DNA of 64,000 bases from Actinoplanes sp. NBC_00393 (GTDB taxonomy: Bacteria > Actinomycetota > Actinomycetes > Mycobacteriales > Micromonosporaceae). The translations under genes and the position numbers were made by a program. The notes under the pieces were generated by a model. The model saw only the letters and a list, made by a program, of their open reading frames with translations, had not been told where the DNA came from and made no database searches. Positions within the stretch are counted from its first letter, which is position 1; every line of letters starts with the position of its first letter. The DNA lies in assembly GCF_036053395.1 (NCBI RefSeq), contig NZ_CP107942.1:4430501-4494500 (forward strand), in the 5' to 3' direction. Shown piece by piece: positions 6,177 to 14,991 of the stretch.

Positions 6177-6800
6177 TCAGTTGGCGGGCGGGCGCTCGCC
6201 GAGCAGCGTGAACCAGCTTTCGGCCAGGACGTGGACGACCTGCTCGCGGTCGACTCCCCAGCGGCCCTCGGTCCAGTGTTGCCCGAGGTAGTCCAGCTGG
6301 GCGAAGGCGAGCACGGCCCGGGAGTGCCGGATCTCCGGCGGGAACCGGCCGGCCTGGTCGAGGCCGTCCTTGATGTCGGCGATGACCTCCTCGAACCAGC
6401 TGTCGACGAGGTCGCGCAGGTCGGGGTCGACGTGGGCGGCCTCGCTGATCGCGTTGAGGTAGGGCCGGATCTGCACCCACGTCCGGGACCGCTGGCCGAG
6501 CCACCCGGCCATCGCCTCGTAGCTGCCGTCGCGGACGACGTCGACGAGCTCCGGCGCCGTGGTCCCGTGCTGCTCGGAGGTGGTGCGCTCGAGCACCTCG
6601 TTCAGCTCGGCGAGCAGGGCACGCGCCAGGTCGCTGCGGGATTTGAAGTACGCATAGAAGGTCACGCGCGTGGTGCCGGCGGTCGAGGCGATGTCGTCGA
6701 CCGTGGTCGCGGCGTAGCCCTTGGTCCGGAACAGCTCGAGCGCTGTGGAGACCAGCAGCTTACGGGTCATCTCCTTCTGCACTGCCCGCAAATTCGCCAC
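6177..6800 (-). CDS. TetR-family transcriptional regulator
   Basis: A 207-residue TetR-type repressor: the N-terminal helix-turn-helix is seen in LVSTALELFRTKGYAATTVDDIASTAGTTRVTFYAYFKSRSDL split over residues 15-57, and the rest is a helical ligand-binding domain rich in Trp and aromatic residues (RTWVQIRPYLNAI, LDYLGQHWTEGRW). It diverges from the MFS gene and the catabolic island. The start is GTG 6800; a TAAGCT box lies six bases upstream with no Shine-Dalgarno sequence, so the message is probably leaderless. The -10 box overlaps the GTAAGC element found in two other promoters of the island, which fits autorepression. Confidence 0.93.
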   Translation of the reverse strand: MANLRAVQKEMTRKLLVSTALELFRTKGYAATTVDDIASTAGTTRVTFYAYFKSRSDLARALLAELNEVLERTTSEQHGTTAPELVDVVRDGSYEAMAGWLGQRSRTWVQIRPYLNAISEAAHVDPDLRDLVDSWFEEVIADIKDGLDQAGRFPPEIRHSRAVLAFAQLDYLGQHWTEGRWGVDREQVVHVLAESWFTLLGERPPAN

Positions 6801-6924: not shown

Positions 6925-8475
6925 GTGGTCTCAAAGACCCGGGCGACACTGATCGCCAGTTGCACCGCGGTTCTGGTCGCCCAACTCACCAACGCGCTGC
7001 CCGGCGCGCTCAACGGCACGTTCCAGCAGGAGTTCCAGACCGCCGGCACCGAGCTGACCTGGATCACGGCCGCGTTCATGATTCCGCTGGTCGTCTTCGA
7101 GCTGACGTTCGGCCTGATCGGCGACATGTGGGGCCGCAAGAAGCTGCTGATCGGCGGCGCCGGCCTGCTCGTCGCCGGCGCGCTCGTCTGCGCCACCGCA
7201 CCGACCGTGCAGGCGATGTGGGCCGGTCAGGCGCTCAGCGGTCTCGGCGCCGGCATCCTGTTCCCGATCTCGCTGACGCTCAGCGCCGCGATCACCCCGA
7301 CCGCGCACGCCCGGGCCCGGGTCATCGCGATCTGGGCCGGGTTCCTGTCGCTCGGCGCGGCGATCTCCCCGCTGCTGGCCGGTTTGTTCGCCGAGTACAG
7401 CTCGTGGCGTGGCGCGTACATCGTGGTTGCTGTTCTCGCGGCGGTCGCCGCGCTGTTGACCCTGGGCGCGCAGGATTCGTCCGCACCCTCCGGCCGCAAG
7501 GTCGACATCCCCGGCCAGGTCACCCTCGCGCTCGGCCTGATCGCGGTCCTGTACGCCGCGGTGCAGGGCGCCGAGGTCGGCTGGAGCCGGCCGGAGATCG
7601 TCGGCGGCTTCGTGGCCGGCGCGGCGCTGCTCGCGGCGTTCGTGGTGATCGAGCTGCGCACCGACCCGCCGCTGCTGGACCTGCGGCTGTTCCGCAACCG
7701 GTCGTTCAGCATCGCCTCAGTCGTCGCGGTGGTCGGCATGTTCAGCTTCCTCGGCATCTGCTTCTCGACGAGCATCTGGCTCGGCGCCGTCCAGCACCAG
7801 AGCGCGCTGAAGATCGGCATCCTGTTCCTGTTCATCCAGGGCCCGGCGTTCGCGCTGATCCCGCTGATCTCCTACCTGCTGCGGCACGTGCCGCCGCGCT
7901 GGGTGCTGACCGGCGGTTTCGCGCTGATGGCCGTCGGCGGTTTCTGGTGCTCGCGGTTCGACGTGCAGGACCTGGGGTGGACGCGGTTCATCGCGCCGCT
8001 GCTGCTGGTCGGGATCGGCTTCGCGCTGACCGTCGGCTCGATCACCGCGGTCGCCATCAACACCGTGCCACTGCACTACGCGGGCATGGCCAGCGCGACC
8101 ACGAACCTGCTGCGTGACCTCGGATTCGCGCTCGGCCCGGTGATCGTCGGCGCGATCGCGCTGAGCAGCGCCGGCGCGCGCTTCGCCGAGGCGCTGCCGG
8201 GTTCCGGGCTGCCACCGGCCGAGCTGGGCGCGGCCACGGCGATCGGCGAGGCCGCCGGACCGATCGCGGTGAACAGCCTGCCGCCGGGCGTACCCGGTTC
8301 GGGCGCGCACGCCGTCGCGATGGACGCGCTCGGCAGCGGCTTCCAGCTGGCGTTCCTGGTGTGCGCGATCGGGGCGCTGGTGGCTGCCGCGCTCACCCTG
8401 TTCGGCCTGCGCAACACCCGCGACACCACGCCCGAGGAGCAAATGATGGAGTCGGCGCAAAGTTTTTCATCATGA
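6925..8475 (+). CDS. MFS transporter, DHA2-like 14-TM family
   Basis: A 516-residue integral membrane protein with about fourteen hydrophobic segments. The conserved loop between segments 2 and 3 reads GLIGDMWGRKKLL (motif A, GxxxDxxGRRxxL), and LSGLGAGILFP matches the segment-4 motif. The family exports small hydrophobic compounds with proton exchange. GTG 6925 is chosen because GAAGGAG at 6911-6917 lies 7 nt upstream. The gene opens the TetR-controlled island and is followed by a second promoter before the phosphotriesterase-like genes. It may import the island's substrate or remove a toxic intermediate; the sequence does not decide. Confidence 0.9.
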   Translation: MVSKTRATLIASCTAVLVAQLTNALPGALNGTFQQEFQTAGTELTWITAAFMIPLVVFELTFGLIGDMWGRKKLLIGGAGLLVAGALVCATAPTVQAMWAGQALSGLGAGILFPISLTLSAAITPTAHARARVIAIWAGFLSLGAAISPLLAGLFAEYSSWRGAYIVVAVLAAVAALLTLGAQDSSAPSGRKVDIPGQVTLALGLIAVLYAAVQGAEVGWSRPEIVGGFVAGAALLAAFVVIELRTDPPLLDLRLFRNRSFSIASVVAVVGMFSFLGICFSTSIWLGAVQHQSALKIGILFLFIQGPAFALIPLISYLLRHVPPRWVLTGGFALMAVGGFWCSRFDVQDLGWTRFIAPLLLVGIGFALTVGSITAVAINTVPLHYAGMASATTNLLRDLGFALGPVIVGAIALSSAGARFAEALPGSGLPPAELGAATAIGEAAGPIAVNSLPPGVPGSGAHAVAMDALGSGFQLAFLVCAIGALVAAALTLFGLRNTRDTTPEEQMMESAQSFSS

Positions 8476-8550: not shown

Positions 8551-9483
8551 ATGACGGGCACCACGGTCAACACCGTCCTCGGCCCGGTTCCCGCTGATCA
8601 GCTGGGCGTCGTCTCGGTTCACGAGGCCCTGCTGTCGGTGGTTCCGGGCGCCGAGCACGCGTTCGACGTCGTCATCGACCGCGCCGAGATCTTCGAGACC
8701 CTGGCCGCGAAGCTGACCGCGTTCCGGGAGCACGGCGGCGGGACGATCGTCGACAGCACCGGCATGTTCCACGGCCGCGACGTGCGGCTGTACGAGGCAT
8801 TGTCCGCGAAGACCGGCGTGCACATCGTCGCCTCGACCGGGATGGGTCCCGAGGAGATGCTCGGCGGCTACTTCCTGACCCCGCAGACCAACCCGCCGAC
8901 GCCGTGGCCGGCCGAGAAGTTCGCCGACCTGTTCGCCAAGGAGGTCACCGAGGGCATGGTCGTCCCCCGGGTGGAGCGGCGCGCCGCCGCCGGCCTGGTC
9001 GTCACGGCCGCCACGCGCGAGGGCATGACAGCCACCGACGAGAGCCTGTTCCGCGGCGCCGCCCGCGCCGCGCTGGCCACCGGCGTTCCCGTCTCGATCC
9101 GTTGCGGTGATCTCGGGGTGGTCCTGGACGAAGGGCTGCCGGCGGACCGGGTCGTCGTCGGCGAACTCGACCGCCGCGATGCCAAACCCTTCGAAGCGGC
9201 CCGGCACGGCGCGTTCGTCGCACTGGACCACGTGGGCCTGAACGACGACGACGCCTACCTCGACGACGAGGAGCGCGTCGCCCTCGTGCTCGGCCTGATC
9301 GAAGCCGGACACGGCCACCAGATCCTGCTCTCCAGCAACGCCGTCGGGGTCGCGAAGGGGCACCCCGAACATGACCTGCCGTTCGAGTTCGTCCTGCGGA
9401 CGTTCGCGCCCCGCCTGCCCGCCGCCCATACCCGGCAGATCCTGGTGGACAACCCGCGCACCCTCTTGTCGAAAGAGAACTGA
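8551..9483 (+). CDS. phosphotriesterase-like protein lacking the metal centre (predicted pseudoenzyme)
   Basis: A 310-residue member of the amidohydrolase/phosphotriesterase superfamily, clearly paralogous to the next gene (shared VNTVLGP start, LSAKTGVHIVASTG, RAALATGVPV). Metal-binding positions of the family are nearly all replaced: the first HxH is H24-E-A26, the carboxylated Lys is Val151, the later His ligands are Arg184 and Glu205, and the last Asp is Asn263. The rest of the barrel looks intact, so this is not a decayed pseudogene but a protein under selection for something other than classical hydrolysis. AAAGGAAG at 8538-8545 places the start at ATG 8551. The next gene starts 2 nt after the stop, so a paired or heteromeric role is plausible (inference). 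Confidence 0.88.
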   Translation: MTGTTVNTVLGPVPADQLGVVSVHEALLSVVPGAEHAFDVVIDRAEIFETLAAKLTAFREHGGGTIVDSTGMFHGRDVRLYEALSAKTGVHIVASTGMGPEEMLGGYFLTPQTNPPTPWPAEKFADLFAKEVTEGMVVPRVERRAAAGLVVTAATREGMTATDESLFRGAARAALATGVPVSIRCGDLGVVLDEGLPADRVVVGELDRRDAKPFEAARHGAFVALDHVGLNDDDAYLDDEERVALVLGLIEAGHGHQILLSSNAVGVAKGHPEHDLPFEFVLRTFAPRLPAAHTRQILVDNPRTLLSKEN

Positions 9484-9485
9484 AG

Positions 9486-10442
9486 ATGTCGAGAGTGAAC
9501 ACCGTCCTGGGCCCGATCCCGGCCGAGGAGCTGGGCATCGTCGCCGTCCACGAGCACATCGGGTACGGCATGCCCGGCTCCGAACTCGACACCCGCTGGT
9601 GGAAGACGCCCGAGCAGCGCTACGCGGAGACGGTTCCGAAACTGCGGCAGTTCCATGAGTACGGCGGCGGCACCTTCGTCGACGCCACCGGCATCTGCAA
9701 CGGCCGCGACGTCGACTACTACCGCTCGCTGTCGGCGAAGACCGGCGTGCACATCGTCGCCTCCACCGGCTTCGTCGGCGGTGACACCGCGCTGCCGTTC
9801 TTCGCCCGCGCCACGGTCGACTACCTGGCCCGGCACTTCGTCCACGAGATCACCGTCGGCATCGGCACGAGCGGCGGCCGGGCCGGGATCATCAAGGTCG
9901 GGGTGAGCCGCGGCGGCAAGATGACCGACCTGGACAAGCGGATCTACCGCGCCGCCGCCCGGGCGGCGCTGCAGACCGGTGTGCCGGTGCTGACCCACCT
10001 CGCGATCGACGCGGAGAACGCGATCGCGATCTTCCGCGAGGAGGGCCTGCCGCTCGACCGGGTGCTGTTCGGCCACGTCGACGACGGCGTGAACGCCGAC
10101 AAGACCCGCGACGTGTGGATCGCCGAGCAGGGCGGCCGGATCGGTTTCGACACGTTCGGCTACGAGACCGAGCTGCCTGACCCGCCGTTCTGGGCCCGGC
10201 CGCGCCAGGAGCGCCTCGACCACTTCCTGCGCTTCATCGGCGGGGACGGCCGCATCTCGCAGGTCCTCGCCTCGGCCGACGCGAACTGCAGCCCGCTGGG
10301 CTGGCCCGGCGTGCAGGGCCACACCGTCAACTACATCTTCGAGCAGCTCATCCCGGATCTGCGCGCGGCCGGCCTGGACGCGGCCGCGATCAAGACGATC
10401 TTCGTCGACAACCCCGCAGAATTCCTGACCATTCAGAACTGA
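9486..10442 (+). CDS. phosphotriesterase-family metal hydrolase (lactonase/esterase)
   Basis: A 318-residue binuclear-metal hydrolase with the full ligand set: H22 and H24 (VHEHIGYG), carboxylated K137 (AGIIKVGVSRG), H171 (LTHLAID), H197 (FGHVDDG) and D265 (ASADANC). Members act on lactones, phosphotriesters or related esters. The size is usual for the family. It is the intact partner of the preceding ligand-poor paralogue, only 2 nt downstream, and 10 nt before the monooxygenase. The neighbourhood (monooxygenase, two serine hydrolases, MBL-fold hydrolase) suggests ring-opening or ester cleavage of an aromatic or macrocyclic lactone; the actual substrate cannot be read from sequence. Confidence 0.92.
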   Translation: MSRVNTVLGPIPAEELGIVAVHEHIGYGMPGSELDTRWWKTPEQRYAETVPKLRQFHEYGGGTFVDATGICNGRDVDYYRSLSAKTGVHIVASTGFVGGDTALPFFARATVDYLARHFVHEITVGIGTSGGRAGIIKVGVSRGGKMTDLDKRIYRAAARAALQTGVPVLTHLAIDAENAIAIFREEGLPLDRVLFGHVDDGVNADKTRDVWIAEQGGRIGFDTFGYETELPDPPFWARPRQERLDHFLRFIGGDGRISQVLASADANCSPLGWPGVQGHTVNYIFEQLIPDLRAAGLDAAAIKTIFVDNPAEFLTIQN

Positions 10443-10452
10443 GAGAGCACCC

Positions 10453-11565
10453 ATGGACATCAACGGCTTGAGAATCGCCATTGTCGGCGCGGGGTACGGG
10501 GGCGCCGCGGCGGCCAAGGCCCTCAGCCTGCTCGGCGCCGATGTCACCGTCTACGAGCAGGCGCCGCGGATCACCGAGGTCGGCGCCGGGATCGGCCTGC
10601 GCCCGTCCACCATGGCGCTGTTCCGCCGGTGGGGAATCCGGGACGCGATCGCCAGGGTGAGCTCGCCCAGCGACTACTTCCAGATCCTGACCGCCACCGG
10701 CGAGCCGATCATGCAGGAGGAGTGGCCGGAGAAGGACGTCTTCGACCACACCACCCACCTGATCCACCGCGGCGACTTCATCGACGCCCTGCTCGGTGAG
10801 CTGCCCGACGGCATGGTCCGGCTCGGCCACCGGCTGGAGCGCATCGACGGCAACGAGCTGACGTTCGCCGTCAATGGAGCGGACGGCGAGACCGTCACCG
10901 CCGACCTGATCATCGGCGCCGACGGCATCAAGTCGGTGGTGCGCCGGATGATCGGCGAAGAGAAGGAGCCGGTCTTCTCCGGGGAGCACGCCTACCGCGT
11001 GGTGATCGACATCGACGCCGCTCACGGCATGTGCACCGACGACAACCTGCGCATGTACATCGGCCGCGGCACCAAGGTCTACCTGCTACCGCTGCGCCAC
11101 CGCGACCAGGTGTCGTTCGACATCACCGCGCTGTGCCCGGACAGCACCTGGAACCCGGTCGTCACCAAGGACGACCTGCTCAAGACGGTCGAGGGCTTCG
11201 ACGAGCGGATCGTGAACATCACCCGCGACCTCGACATGACGACGGTGAACGTCAAGGCGGTCTACGACATCGACCCGATCGACACCTGGCACACCGACTC
11301 GGTCGTGCTGATCGGCGACGCTGCGCACTCGATGCTGCACCACCAGGGTCAGGGCGCCAACTCGGCGATCATGGACGCCGGTGCGCTCGCCGACGCGCTC
11401 GTCCGGGCCGATTCGGTCACGGAGGCGCTCGCCGCCTTCCAGGCCACCCGCAAGCCGGTGACCGACGAACTGCAGCGCATCTCGCGCCAAGGCTGGTCCG
11501 CCGACGAGGTCAATGATGTCTTCCCCGGCCAGAAGCCGGCGTCGCAGCAGCCGCGGGAGGCGTGA
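10453..11565 (+). CDS. FAD-dependent aromatic-ring monooxygenase-like protein
   Basis: A 370-residue group A flavoprotein monooxygenase. The N-terminal Rossmann motif is VGAGYGGAAAAKAL, the DG motif is IIGADGIKSVVR, and the GD motif with its following helix is VVLIGDAAHSMLHHQGQGANSA. These three motifs define the salicylate hydroxylase/PHBH-like class, which hydroxylates aromatic substrates with NAD(P)H and O2. In the usual class the GD motif is followed by a Pro (HxxxPxxGQG); here the Pro position is occupied by His (MLHHQGQG). The gene lies mid-operon with short gaps on both sides (GAGAG ribosome-binding site before ATG 10453), so it is probably co-expressed with the hydrolases and provides the oxidative step. 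Confidence 0.9.
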   Translation: MDINGLRIAIVGAGYGGAAAAKALSLLGADVTVYEQAPRITEVGAGIGLRPSTMALFRRWGIRDAIARVSSPSDYFQILTATGEPIMQEEWPEKDVFDHTTHLIHRGDFIDALLGELPDGMVRLGHRLERIDGNELTFAVNGADGETVTADLIIGADGIKSVVRRMIGEEKEPVFSGEHAYRVVIDIDAAHGMCTDDNLRMYIGRGTKVYLLPLRHRDQVSFDITALCPDSTWNPVVTKDDLLKTVEGFDERIVNITRDLDMTTVNVKAVYDIDPIDTWHTDSVVLIGDAAHSMLHHQGQGANSAIMDAGALADALVRADSVTEALAAFQATRKPVTDELQRISRQGWSADEVNDVFPGQKPASQQPREA

Positions 11566-11567
11566 CG

Positions 11568-12434
11568 ATGCCGCTGCATCCCGAGATCGCCAAGGTTCTC
11601 GCGACCCTGCCGGCGCCGCCGCCGGGTCCGCTCGACCCGGTCGCCATGCGCGCGGCCGAAGCCCGGCCGGAAGTGACCACGACGTTGCACGGGGTCGAGG
11701 ACACCACCGTGGGCGAGGTTCCGATCAGGATCTACACACCCGATGATCCGTACGGAAAAATTGTCTTCTTTCATGGCGGCGCCTTCTTCCTCGGCAGCCT
11801 GGACACTCACGACCACGTGGCCCGGTCCCTCGCGAAAGCGACCGGCTTCCAGGTGATCTCCGTCGGCTACCGGCTCGCCCCCGAGGCAGCCTTCCCGGCC
11901 GGCCTCGACGACTGCTACGCGGTGGTGCGCTGGGCAGCCGGCGAAACCGGAACCGTGGCGATCGCCGGTGACAGCTCCGGCGGCACCTTCGCCGCCGCCA
12001 TCGCCGCGATGGCCCACGACGACGGCTTCGACCGGATCAGCCACCAGATCCTCTACTACCCATCGCTCGACCTGGACTTCGACGAGGACCGCTACCCGTC
12101 GCTGCGGGAGAACGCCGTCGGCTACGGCCTGGAGACCGCCGGTCTGAAGCCGTTCAACGCCTTCTACCTCGCCAGCGGCGCCGACCCGGCCGACCCGCGG
12201 GTCTCCCCGATCAAGCGCACCGACCTCACCGGCCTGCCGCCGGCGCTGATCGTCACCGGCGAACTGGACCCGCTGCGCGACGAGGCCGAACTCTACGGTC
12301 TGCGCCTGCGCGCCGCCGGAGTCCCGGTCACGGTGAGCCGCTACGCCGGCGCCGGCCACGGCTTCGTCCAGCACTTCTCCTGGATCCCGGAATATCACCG
12401 GGCGTTCGAGGAGACCGCGGAGTTCCTGCGGTGA
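11568..12434 (+). CDS. alpha/beta hydrolase, hormone-sensitive-lipase type esterase
   Basis: A 288-residue esterase of the HSL family (family IV). The oxyanion-hole motif is FHGGAFF, the nucleophile lies in GDSSGG, the acid is in ELDPLRDE, and the catalytic His is in GAGHGF. GGGAGG at 11555-11560 sits 7 nt upstream of ATG 11568; the GTG at 11562 is too close to it to be the start. The gene begins 2 nt after the monooxygenase stop and its own stop overlaps the start of the MBL-fold gene. It probably cleaves a short-chain or aromatic ester made in the preceding steps (inference). Confidence 0.92.
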   Translation: MPLHPEIAKVLATLPAPPPGPLDPVAMRAAEARPEVTTTLHGVEDTTVGEVPIRIYTPDDPYGKIVFFHGGAFFLGSLDTHDHVARSLAKATGFQVISVGYRLAPEAAFPAGLDDCYAVVRWAAGETGTVAIAGDSSGGTFAAAIAAMAHDDGFDRISHQILYYPSLDLDFDEDRYPSLRENAVGYGLETAGLKPFNAFYLASGADPADPRVSPIKRTDLTGLPPALIVTGELDPLRDEAELYGLRLRAAGVPVTVSRYAGAGHGFVQHFSWIPEYHRAFEETAEFLR

Positions 12435-13315
12435 ACGTCCATCCGCTCTACTCGCCGTGGGGACGGTTCGGGCTCTACAGCTTCTACCTCGACGCCCCGG
12501 AACCGGCGATCGTCGACACCGGCATCGCCTCCTCCCCCGCCGAGGGCATGGCCCCCGCGCTGGAGCAACTCGGCCGCCGCATCGAGGACGTGCGCTGGAT
12601 CCTGCTCACCCACGGTCACATCGATCACATCGGCGGCGCGTACGCGTTGTGGGAACTGACCGGCCGCCGCGCCCGGCTGGTCATCCACGAGGCCGATGCG
12701 CCGCTGCTGCGCTCGCGCCGCGCCCACGTGCGGGAACGGGACGACGCCGGCAAGGCTGCGGCGCAGCTCGCGACGGCGGAGACGGTCATCTCCGGCGAGA
12801 TGGAGCCGACGCTGCTGGTCAAGGGCGGCGAGACCCTGTCGCTGGGTGGTGACGTGACCGTTTCCGTGCACGCGATCCCCGGTCACACGGCCGGATCGGT
12901 CGCCTACGTCGTCGACGGGCAGGGCGACGTGTTCGTCGGTGACGCCGTGCAGATCCACGGGGCGGCGAACCACTTCCCCGGATACGAGAACCCGGCCGCC
13001 TACCGGGAGAGTCTCCGCTACCTGCGGGACACGGTTCGTCCGCGTCACCTGTATCTGGGCCATCCCTACCGGCGGACCGACGGCACGGCTTACGGCGTAC
13101 AACTCAATGCTGATGAAGCGCGTGCGGCGCTGCAGGAAAGTCTCGACATCGAAGCCCGCGTCGCTGCCGCGGCCGAAGGCCCGCGCGGGCCGAGCGACTC
13201 CCCCTACTCCCCGTTCGCCGGCGCCGCCGGCCAACTCGGCTACCGCGGCGACCCCACCCTGGAACCGTCGCCGTTCTTCACGACGATGCACGGATACGTC
13301 AAGGACAAAGCATGA
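12431..13315 (+). CDS. metallo-beta-lactamase-fold hydrolase
   Basis: A 294-residue MBL-fold protein with the complete zinc set: THGHIDH (HxHxDH), H in PGHTAGS, D in VFVGDAV, and H in LYLGHPYR. The layout resembles AHL-lactonase or glyoxalase II-like members, and no signal peptide is present. The GTG start overlaps the preceding stop (GTGA) and the stop overlaps the following ATG (ATGA), so translation is coupled through the operon. Two different metal hydrolases capable of lactone cleavage (this and the phosphotriesterase) in one operon make a lactone or thioester intermediate a reasonable guess. Confidence 0.9.
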   Translation: MNVHPLYSPWGRFGLYSFYLDAPEPAIVDTGIASSPAEGMAPALEQLGRRIEDVRWILLTHGHIDHIGGAYALWELTGRRARLVIHEADAPLLRSRRAHVRERDDAGKAAAQLATAETVISGEMEPTLLVKGGETLSLGGDVTVSVHAIPGHTAGSVAYVVDGQGDVFVGDAVQIHGAANHFPGYENPAAYRESLRYLRDTVRPRHLYLGHPYRRTDGTAYGVQLNADEARAALQESLDIEARVAAAAEGPRGPSDSPYSPFAGAAGQLGYRGDPTLEPSPFFTTMHGYVKDKA

Positions 13316-14991
13316 TCAAGGTACGCAAGGACCTGCGGATCCCGATGCGCGACGGCGTCGAACTGGCCGCCGACGCCTACCACGACGGCTCGGACGAGCG
13401 GCCGCGCCCGGCGCTGATCGCGATGAGCGCCTACGGCAAAAAGCTGCAGGCGCTCGCGCTGACCACGCCGCCGCAGCGGCGGCCGAGCCCGATGTGGGAC
13501 GGCTGCATCGAGGCCGGCGACATCGCCCGGGTGGTCAGTGAGGGGTACGTCCACGTCATCGGCGACATGCGCGGCACCGGCGACTCCGGCGGCGTGATGA
13601 TCGGCAACTACAACTTCGGCGGTGTCCCCCAGGGCCAGGACCTGTACGACGTGATCGAGTGGGTCGCCGCGCAGCCGTGGTGTGACGGCAACGTCGGCAT
13701 GATCGGCATCTCCTACTTCGGGTCGATGCAGGTCCTCGCCGCCGCCGAACGCCCGCCGCACCTCAAGGCGATCTTCGTCAGCGGCGGCCACTTCGACTTC
13801 TACGAGACCACGTACCACGGCGGCGTCATGTGGTTCATGCCGCGCGCGGCCCGCGAGGGACGCGGCGGCGACTCCGGCATCGCGCACACCAACGTCCAGT
13901 CCCGGATGCTTTCTCAGTTCTCTGCGGACGAGATCGAGAAGTTGGTCGCGAAGCGGCTCCAAGATCCGGACGTGGCCGCCTGGCCCAACCTGGTGCACGT
14001 CCTGCGCTACCCGAAGAACCGCGAACTCTGGTTCGACATCGTCATGAACGAGCTCGACGGTGACTGGTACGAGCAGCGCAACCCGATCACCCTGGCTGCG
14101 AACATCGACATCCCGGTCTACCTGCAGATCGACCAGGGCCGCGGCTGGACCGTCGACGGCCACATCGAGCTCTTCGACGTGCTGACGGGCCCGAAGAAGC
14201 TGGACATCGGCTCCTACCCGCCGATGCAGTCGCGCCCCTGGATCGAGGAGCACGACAAGATGTTCCGCTGGTACGACTACTGGCTCAAGGGCATCGACAA
14301 CGGGATCATGGACGAGCCGGCGGTCAGCGTCTTCGTCGAAGGCTCCCGGTCCGTGGTCACCGGAAGCCAGTGGCCGCCTCGCCCGGTGGCATACCGATCG
14401 CTCTACCTGCGCCCGCGCCACAAGATCTCCAGCGAGCCCGAGCTGATGGAGGACGTCGCGCCCGACGGCTTCTACCAGGCCCCGCTGACCGTGACCGACA
14501 CCGTGCAGGTCGTCACCTGGACCAGCGAGCCGTTCGAGCAGGCGGTGGAGATGATCGGCACCGGTGCCGCCCACCTGTTCGTCGAGATCGATCAGGAGGA
14601 CACCAACCTCATCCTGCGCCTGTGGGACACCGCCCCGACCGGGACCCGCCAGCTGATCACCACCGGCTTCCTCAAGGCGTCACACCGCGAACTCGACGAA
14701 CGCACCACCGAGGGCAACCCCTACCACCCGCACACCCGCGCGGTGCCGGTCGAGCCGGGCAAGATCGAGGAGTACGTGGTACGCCTCTACCCGTTCGCCA
14801 GCACCTTCCGCCCCGGCCACCGCCTGGTCGTGGAACTCTCCAACGACGAGCCCCTCGCCGACGCGCACAACGCGCTGCTGCCCCCGGACGCCTTCCACCT
14901 GCCGGTGGGCCGCCCGGTAACCCACAAGATCTACCGAGACGCCCAGCACCCGTCCCGGCTGGTCCTGCCGTTCACCGCGGACAGGGTTTGA
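13312..14991 (+). CDS. CocE/NonD-type alpha/beta hydrolase (X-Pro dipeptidyl-peptidase fold)
   Basis: A 559-residue serine hydrolase of the CocE/NonD family: an N-terminal alpha/beta-hydrolase domain with the strand VIGDMRGTGDSGG and the nucleophile elbow GISYFG, followed by a C-terminal jelly-roll domain (from about residue 350, with RLVVELSN near the end). Relatives cleave cocaine, cephalosporin esters or nonactin. Where cocaine esterase has a clear GPW-H catalytic-His segment, this protein reads YPPMQSRPWIEEHDKMF, so the catalytic His is not obvious. The ATG overlaps the MBL-fold stop. It is the last gene of the island and is followed 3 nt later by a strong hairpin. Confidence 0.9.
   Translation: MIKVRKDLRIPMRDGVELAADAYHDGSDERPRPALIAMSAYGKKLQALALTTPPQRRPSPMWDGCIEAGDIARVVSEGYVHVIGDMRGTGDSGGVMIGNYNFGGVPQGQDLYDVIEWVAAQPWCDGNVGMIGISYFGSMQVLAAAERPPHLKAIFVSGGHFDFYETTYHGGVMWFMPRAAREGRGGDSGIAHTNVQSRMLSQFSADEIEKLVAKRLQDPDVAAWPNLVHVLRYPKNRELWFDIVMNELDGDWYEQRNPITLAANIDIPVYLQIDQGRGWTVDGHIELFDVLTGPKKLDIGSYPPMQSRPWIEEHDKMFRWYDYWLKGIDNGIMDEPAVSVFVEGSRSVVTGSQWPPRPVAYRSLYLRPRHKISSEPELMEDVAPDGFYQAPLTVTDTVQVVTWTSEPFEQAVEMIGTGAAHLFVEIDQEDTNLILRLWDTAPTGTRQLITTGFLKASHRELDERTTEGNPYHPHTRAVPVEPGKIEEYVVRLYPFASTFRPGHRLVVELSNDEPLADAHNALLPPDAFHLPVGRPVTHKIYRDAQHPSRLVLPFTADRV

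Follow-up and report, generated by a model that had tools for sequence, protein, structure and literature searches.

A phosphotriesterase paralogue without the family's metal ligands may be a dedicated partner of the metal-keeping protein encoded beside it

The gene pair and its operon

We analysed a 64,000-nucleotide stretch of the genome of Actinoplanes sp. NBC_00393 (the window), in which two adjacent genes, here called A and B, encode proteins of the phosphotriesterase (PTE) family (Table 1). Both genes are open and intact, only 2 bases lie between the stop codon of A and the start of B, and a purine-rich stretch in the 3' end of A could serve as the ribosome-binding site of B. The two had been described from the sequence as adjacent paralogues, and indeed the proteins are 34% identical (114/332 columns, E 3e-38), both exceed the PF02126 cut-off of 22.4 bits, and they fall into sister clades in the tree described below. 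An intact reading frame and a retained fold had also been proposed for A; the frame is as stated, and the predicted model of A is the family barrel. Both proteins score below the cut-off of 500 of the organophosphate hydrolase (OPH) model NF041153 (57.5 bits for A and 116.7 for B). In the organism's own genome (11.43 Mb, one contig), A and B are the only PF02126 matches.

Table 1 Features of the A-B locus, with positions in the window.
Feature	Position	Strand	Basis or remark
TetR-family regulator, divergent from the transporter	6177..6800	-	PF00440
MFS transporter upstream of A	6925..8475	+	PF07690
Gene A, metal-less PTE-fold protein, 310 aa	8551..9483	+	PF02126, 94.1 bits; five of six ligands replaced; barrel model pLDDT 82.3
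A codons 24-26 (H24, E25, A26), first metal motif, second His lost	8620..8628	+	alignment; coordinates from frame
A residues 99-121, A-specific loop, nine positions without B counterpart	8845..8913	+	fixed positions in 138 A rows, both phyla
A V151, replacing the bridging Lys	9001..9003	+	alignment
A R184, replacing the strand-5 His	9100..9102	+	alignments; R in 199/199 actinobacterial and 111/121 proteobacterial A rows
A E205, replacing the strand-6 His	9163..9165	+	alignment; relatives mostly G or D
A N263, replacing the strand-8 Asp	9337..9339	+	alignment
Purine-rich stretch, possible ribosome-binding site of B	9471..9479	+	by eye
Gene B, PTE-family protein with all six ligands, 318 aa	9486..10442	+	PF02126, 157 bits; ligands fixed in B rows
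FAD-dependent monooxygenase	10453..11565	+	PF01494; downstream of B in 79/80 loci
Alpha/beta hydrolase	11562..12434	+	PF07859; 79/80 loci
MBL-fold hydrolase	12431..13315	+	PF00753; 78/80 loci, inverted in 11
CocE/NonD-family hydrolase	13312..14991	+	PF02129, PF08530 and TIGR00976 over cut-off; 78/80 loci

A scan of genome contigs from 84,980 species found 184 stretches that encode relatives of A, and we analysed the best 80 of these 184, which are thus the best-scoring loci and not a random sample. The operon (10453-14991 in the window; loci L003-L082 and L103) is common to Actinobacteria and Caballeronia, often together with a CYP199-like P450 and a ferredoxin reductase. Exceptions to the order were a contig that ends in B (L069) and the MBL and CocE/NonD genes, which were not seen in the stretch of L050 that was analysed. 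The MBL gene is inverted in L005, L006, L009, L015, L017, L024, L025, L030, L047, L059 and L075, and in some of these (for example L006, L009, L017, L024, L030 and L047) an MFS transporter gene separates MBL from the alpha/beta hydrolase gene. L016, L033 and L009 show fragmented matches to B or to other genes of the operon, due either to assembly error or to real damage.

Accessory genes were counted with our own ORF calling and clustering and labelled from one representative each, and the counts are lower bounds: among the 80 loci, a P450 and a ferredoxin-reductase-like gene each occur in at least 43, a LysR gene in 25, a second FAD monooxygenase in 19, a gentisate dioxygenase-like gene in 13 and an aromatic acid/H+ symport-like transporter in 6. 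The P450 is nearest to CYP199, and the second monooxygenase, the dioxygenase and the transporter score below cut-off against the correspondingly named NCBIfam models. The nearest PDB entries to the operon monooxygenase are tropone 2-monooxygenase and 6-hydroxynicotinate 3-monooxygenase, with vanillate 1-, salicylate and hydroxybenzoate hydroxylases also among its matches; the MBL protein had no PDB match at E 1e-10. Taken together, the operon probably encodes the breakdown of an aromatic acid or ester. We found no described cluster matching it, with at least four further enzymes beside A and B, and among the open-licence papers listed in literature searches no title or opening lines of an abstract mention this operon or an inactive PTE paralogue. 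The words amidohydrolase, phosphotriesterase and dihydroorotase do not occur in PMC10211241.

Loss of the metal ligands from A

The metal site was compared in an alignment of 399 rows, which holds A and B of the window with 199 further A rows (119 from database proteins, 80 translated from loci) and 198 additional B rows (119 and 79 from these two sources); some of the database rows may equal locus proteins, and P0122 is the window's own B. The ligands H22, H24, K137, H171, H197 and D265 of B correspond to H24, A26, V151, R184, E205 and N263 of A. These are the residues that the preliminary description had given in claiming a complete site in B and a single surviving ligand, H24, in A. By position, the columns also agree with the ligands of a solved lactonase, SisLac (His22, His24, Lys137, His170, His199 and Asp256), as listed in the available part of its report (PMC3468530). 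All 199 B rows have the ligand at five of the columns and 198 have the Asp, the exception being the frame-broken B of L016. Across the 199 further A rows the first three columns read H 199; A 194, T 3, S 2; and A 143, T 48, V 7, S 1, and the last three R 199; G 178, D 19, A 1, E 1; and N 159, S 22, G 16, R 1, D 1. One of six ligands is kept in 198 of these actinobacterial rows and two in one row. Measured against the binuclear site of the family (four His, Asp and carboxylated Lys), A thus retains 1/6 of the residues and B 6/6. The four His and the Asp are present in 19/19 other PTEs sampled from the same order. The Lys position in those 19 is K in 16, G in 2 and E in 1, and the three with Gly or Glu (L091, L093 and L098) have the other five ligands.

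A second group of A proteins came from a tblastn search of 72,556 plasmid records at E 1e-20, in which the sole match of A was Caballeronia insecticola p2 (59.7% identity). The gene order there is TetR, P450, ferredoxin, FAD-dependent oxidoreductase, A, B, FAD monooxygenase, alpha/beta hydrolase, MBL and CocE/NonD, with A and B overlapping by 4 bases; this A has none of the six ligands and this B has all six. A-B adjacency in Proteobacteria was seen in this one plasmid only. Among the matches listed, 120 relatives of the Caballeronia A are 70-92% identical to it, and those with names belong to Caballeronia, Paraburkholderia, Cupriavidus, Pusillimonas, Marinobacter, Marinobacterium and plain Pseudomonadota; we call the whole clade proteobacterial because the remaining rows resemble the named ones. 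None of its 121 rows (the 120 and the query) keeps any of the six ligands, and the strand-5 position reads R 111, Q 5, K 2, S 2 and A 1.

Judged from these alignments, the loss of ligands from A is far beyond chance, and A has the marks of a pseudoenzyme, its catalytic residues being gone and the protein conserved. We also considered whether ligands had been relocated within A. The conserved E25, D68, D77, H91, D163, E194 and D207 are common to B, and H227 corresponds to a 'DH' in the published alignment for a solved PTE, and these candidates were set aside. Two database A homologues without metal ligands (P0003 and P0007) are recorded publicly as aryldialkylphosphatase, and as a statement of chemistry the names 'aryldialkylphosphatase' and 'phosphotriesterase' on some public A records are doubtful.

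At 46 positions a residue fixed in A faces a different, nearly fixed residue or a gap in B. In the 138 A rows from both phyla, Arg replaces the strand-5 His in 128, R208 (Asp in B) is kept in 134 and H227 (Thr in B) in 136. The conserved basic residues specific to A are R44, K123, R140, R143, R144, R184 and R208, and its specific acidic residues, conserved in the sequences of both A clades and thus the remaining candidates for relocated ligands, are D39, D43, E82, E101, E131, E142, D210, D239 and D275. Two peptide words from the A-specific loop were used in the scan that supplied the 80 loci, so loop conservation in these loci is partly built in.

The near-fixed Arg, R208 and H227 would fit an A with catalysis of its own, acting without metals on a different intermediate of the pathway in a pocket where arginines take the metals' place. 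There is precedent in LigI, a metal-independent lactonase of the amidohydrolase superfamily; the LigI type resembles A in being a barrel that requires no metal, but it belongs to another family. Furthermore, the active face of A is somewhat more conserved than its helices and opposite-face loops (0.61 vs 0.79 bits, one-sided p 0.02). However, the opposite-face loops taken by themselves (0.64 bits) are about as conserved as the active-face loops, the positions that once held ligands vary among A/T/V/S/C, G/D/S and N/S/G, and indels lie beside R184 both in the window's A and in that of another Actinoplanes (P0114). We consider such an enzyme possible but rather doubtful.

The window's own A is 68-81% identical to its relatives and is shortened in three places. 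The segment R184-E194 (9100-9132) has 11 residues, compared with 16 in 198/199 relatives and 12 in P0114; D207-A217 (9169-9201) also has 11, tying with the shortest in a range of 11-44; and V281-R296 (9391-9438) has 16, compared with 19-27. Each shortening is common to at most one of the 199 relatives, so this A may be a weaker copy. It might even be a decaying relic in this one genome, of a family that functions elsewhere, as two of these segments are the shortest seen. Against this, the frame is open, all three shortenings are in frame, identity to the relatives is 68-81% as given above, the A-specific loop is intact, and the end branch of 0.13 is no longer than those of the relatives, making a relic very improbable. 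Pseudogene decay of the A family as a whole was ruled out by its conservation and dN/dS. The A of P0114, from Actinoplanes sp. CA-142083, carries a 44-residue version of a 15-residue segment after strand 6, with a repeated proline/threonine/alanine-rich unit.

Pairing, selection and covariation with B

Genomes were searched for the same pair. A lies directly 5' of B on the same strand in 80/80 of the best-scoring loci, with a gap of 2-60 bases (median 49). In an independent draw of 397 genomes of the order, 11 had a B orthologue (>590 bits, own genome included) and A was beside it in 11/11; in a draw of 396 genomes of the phylum, 2 had A (own included) and B directly followed it in 2/2. Neither A without B nor B without A was found in these three samples, one apparent exception (G641) proving to have an ordinary A. 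Thus the cluster that contains A and B is rare and the pair was never seen broken up in these samples; A is, like a prozyme, encoded and inherited with its paralogue, here the presumably active B. Because A co-occurs almost equally strictly with the rest of the operon, pairing alone is no proof of a complex.

The descent of the pair was examined in a tree of A, B and only 19 further PTEs from the order. The split between A plus B and these 19 has a support of 100/98, and the A and B clades have 100/100 and 100/99, under a midpoint root and with a warning from the program of meeting long branches. For evolutionary rates, 73/81 places (the 80 loci and the window) passed 85% coverage for all six genes. 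Mean pairwise identity was 0.774 for A, 0.836 for B, 0.761 for the monooxygenase, 0.786 for the alpha/beta hydrolase, 0.800 for MBL and 0.861 for CocE. The corresponding median dN/dS values, which are rough Nei-Gojobori estimates at partly saturated synonymous sites, were 0.276, 0.219, 0.340, 0.226, 0.215 and 0.191. A (0.28) therefore lies inside the operon range of 0.19-0.34 and is not relaxed compared with its neighbours, and selection on it is purifying.

We then compared the divergence of all gene pairs. The A-B distance correlation was 0.85 (5-95% of bootstraps 0.79-0.89; partial r 0.75), and A-B was the best of 15 gene pairs in 500/500 bootstraps, the next-best pair having a median of 0.66. 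The strength of this correlation differed between subsets. In 27 Micrococcales-type places it was strong (0.89), and in the other 46 it was an ordinary 0.70, where the best pair was alpha/beta hydrolase-MBL (0.76) and A-MBL and A-monooxygenase gave 0.69 and 0.68. Although not in every subset, the distance correlation points to a partnership with B, and the closer tracking of B than of any other gene over all loci argues against the metal-free enzyme considered above. A tethered A-B model from 17 paired rows (pLDDT 78.0, pTM 0.51) gave no confident interface.

The same correlation is left unexplained if A is a stand-alone ligand binder, which would sense, carry or sequester an anionic substrate or product and make no contact with B. 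The conserved basic residues specific to A would suit such a binder and TetR or LysR regulators adjoin the operon, but Pfam and NCBIfam profile searches found no DNA-binding or signalling domain in A, and we regard this role as unlikely.

A possible partner subunit

The preliminary description had seen in A and B a conserved pseudoenzyme beside its active twin. This stands in part, at the level of sequence, where ligand loss throughout the A clade, purifying selection, the adjacent B and the sister clades all agree with it, and the fold is kept in the predicted model. The assignment of A as putative pseudoenzyme and B as presumably active enzyme is well supported by these sequence comparisons, which also show the loss of the metal site, the occurrence in two phyla, the pairing and the selection on A. 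The roles suggested there for A, an allosteric partner, a scaffold or a ligand sensor, are candidates, among which the distance correlation favours a partnership with B. As A has lost the metal site yet is conserved in two phyla beside B wherever examined, it is probably a non-metal partner of B. We give about an even chance to the full reading, that A is a functional metal-free member of the PTE fold, derived from an old duplication shared with B, and now the dedicated partner subunit of B.

We hypothesize that, after this duplication, A would have lost the binuclear metal centre and then become a dedicated partner of B in the manner of a prozyme. The two might form a heteromer in place of the family homodimer, in which B would be the hydrolytic subunit, lactonase- or esterase-like, and A's own loop and arginines might serve the A-B contact or hold substrate. 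More tentatively, the heterodimer could be obligate, with the metals functionally replaced by R184 and R208 and with A holding the anionic end of the substrate or completing the active site of B through the near-invariant loop 99-121.

Among described PTEs and PTE-like lactonases (OpdA, SsoPox, SisLac and GkaP; PF02126), the lactonases have a binuclear metal centre and A has none. The described members are homodimeric, and A has an extra loop. The interface of the lactonase homodimers is close to the active site, and some second-shell residues of that site belong to it (PMC3468530, PMC4323659), so an unlike A-B dimer could tune B. There are parallels outside the family. The pseudo-dihydroorotase (pDHO) of the Pseudomonas aeruginosa aspartate transcarbamoylase complex is, like A, an inactive homologue within the amidohydrolase superfamily and is needed by its partner enzyme, but that partner is an unrelated transferase and not its own active paralogue, and pDHO belongs to another branch of the superfamily (PMC7053772). 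The trypanosome prozymes of AdoMetDC and deoxyhypusine synthase are dead paralogues with an active relative, matching the joint action proposed for A and B; unlike the putative A-B partnership, they are eukaryotic proteins of other folds whose activation has been shown experimentally (PMC5201418, PMC3663545).

An A-B heterodimer, if true, would be unlike the homodimeric members described for the family, and the question is testable with two small proteins. The family serves as a standard model in work on enzyme evolution and on bioremediation. Within it, a metal-free clade that occurs in two phyla, beside a metal-keeping sister everywhere examined, may offer a natural experiment in how a barrel enzyme becomes a non-catalytic or differently working partner.
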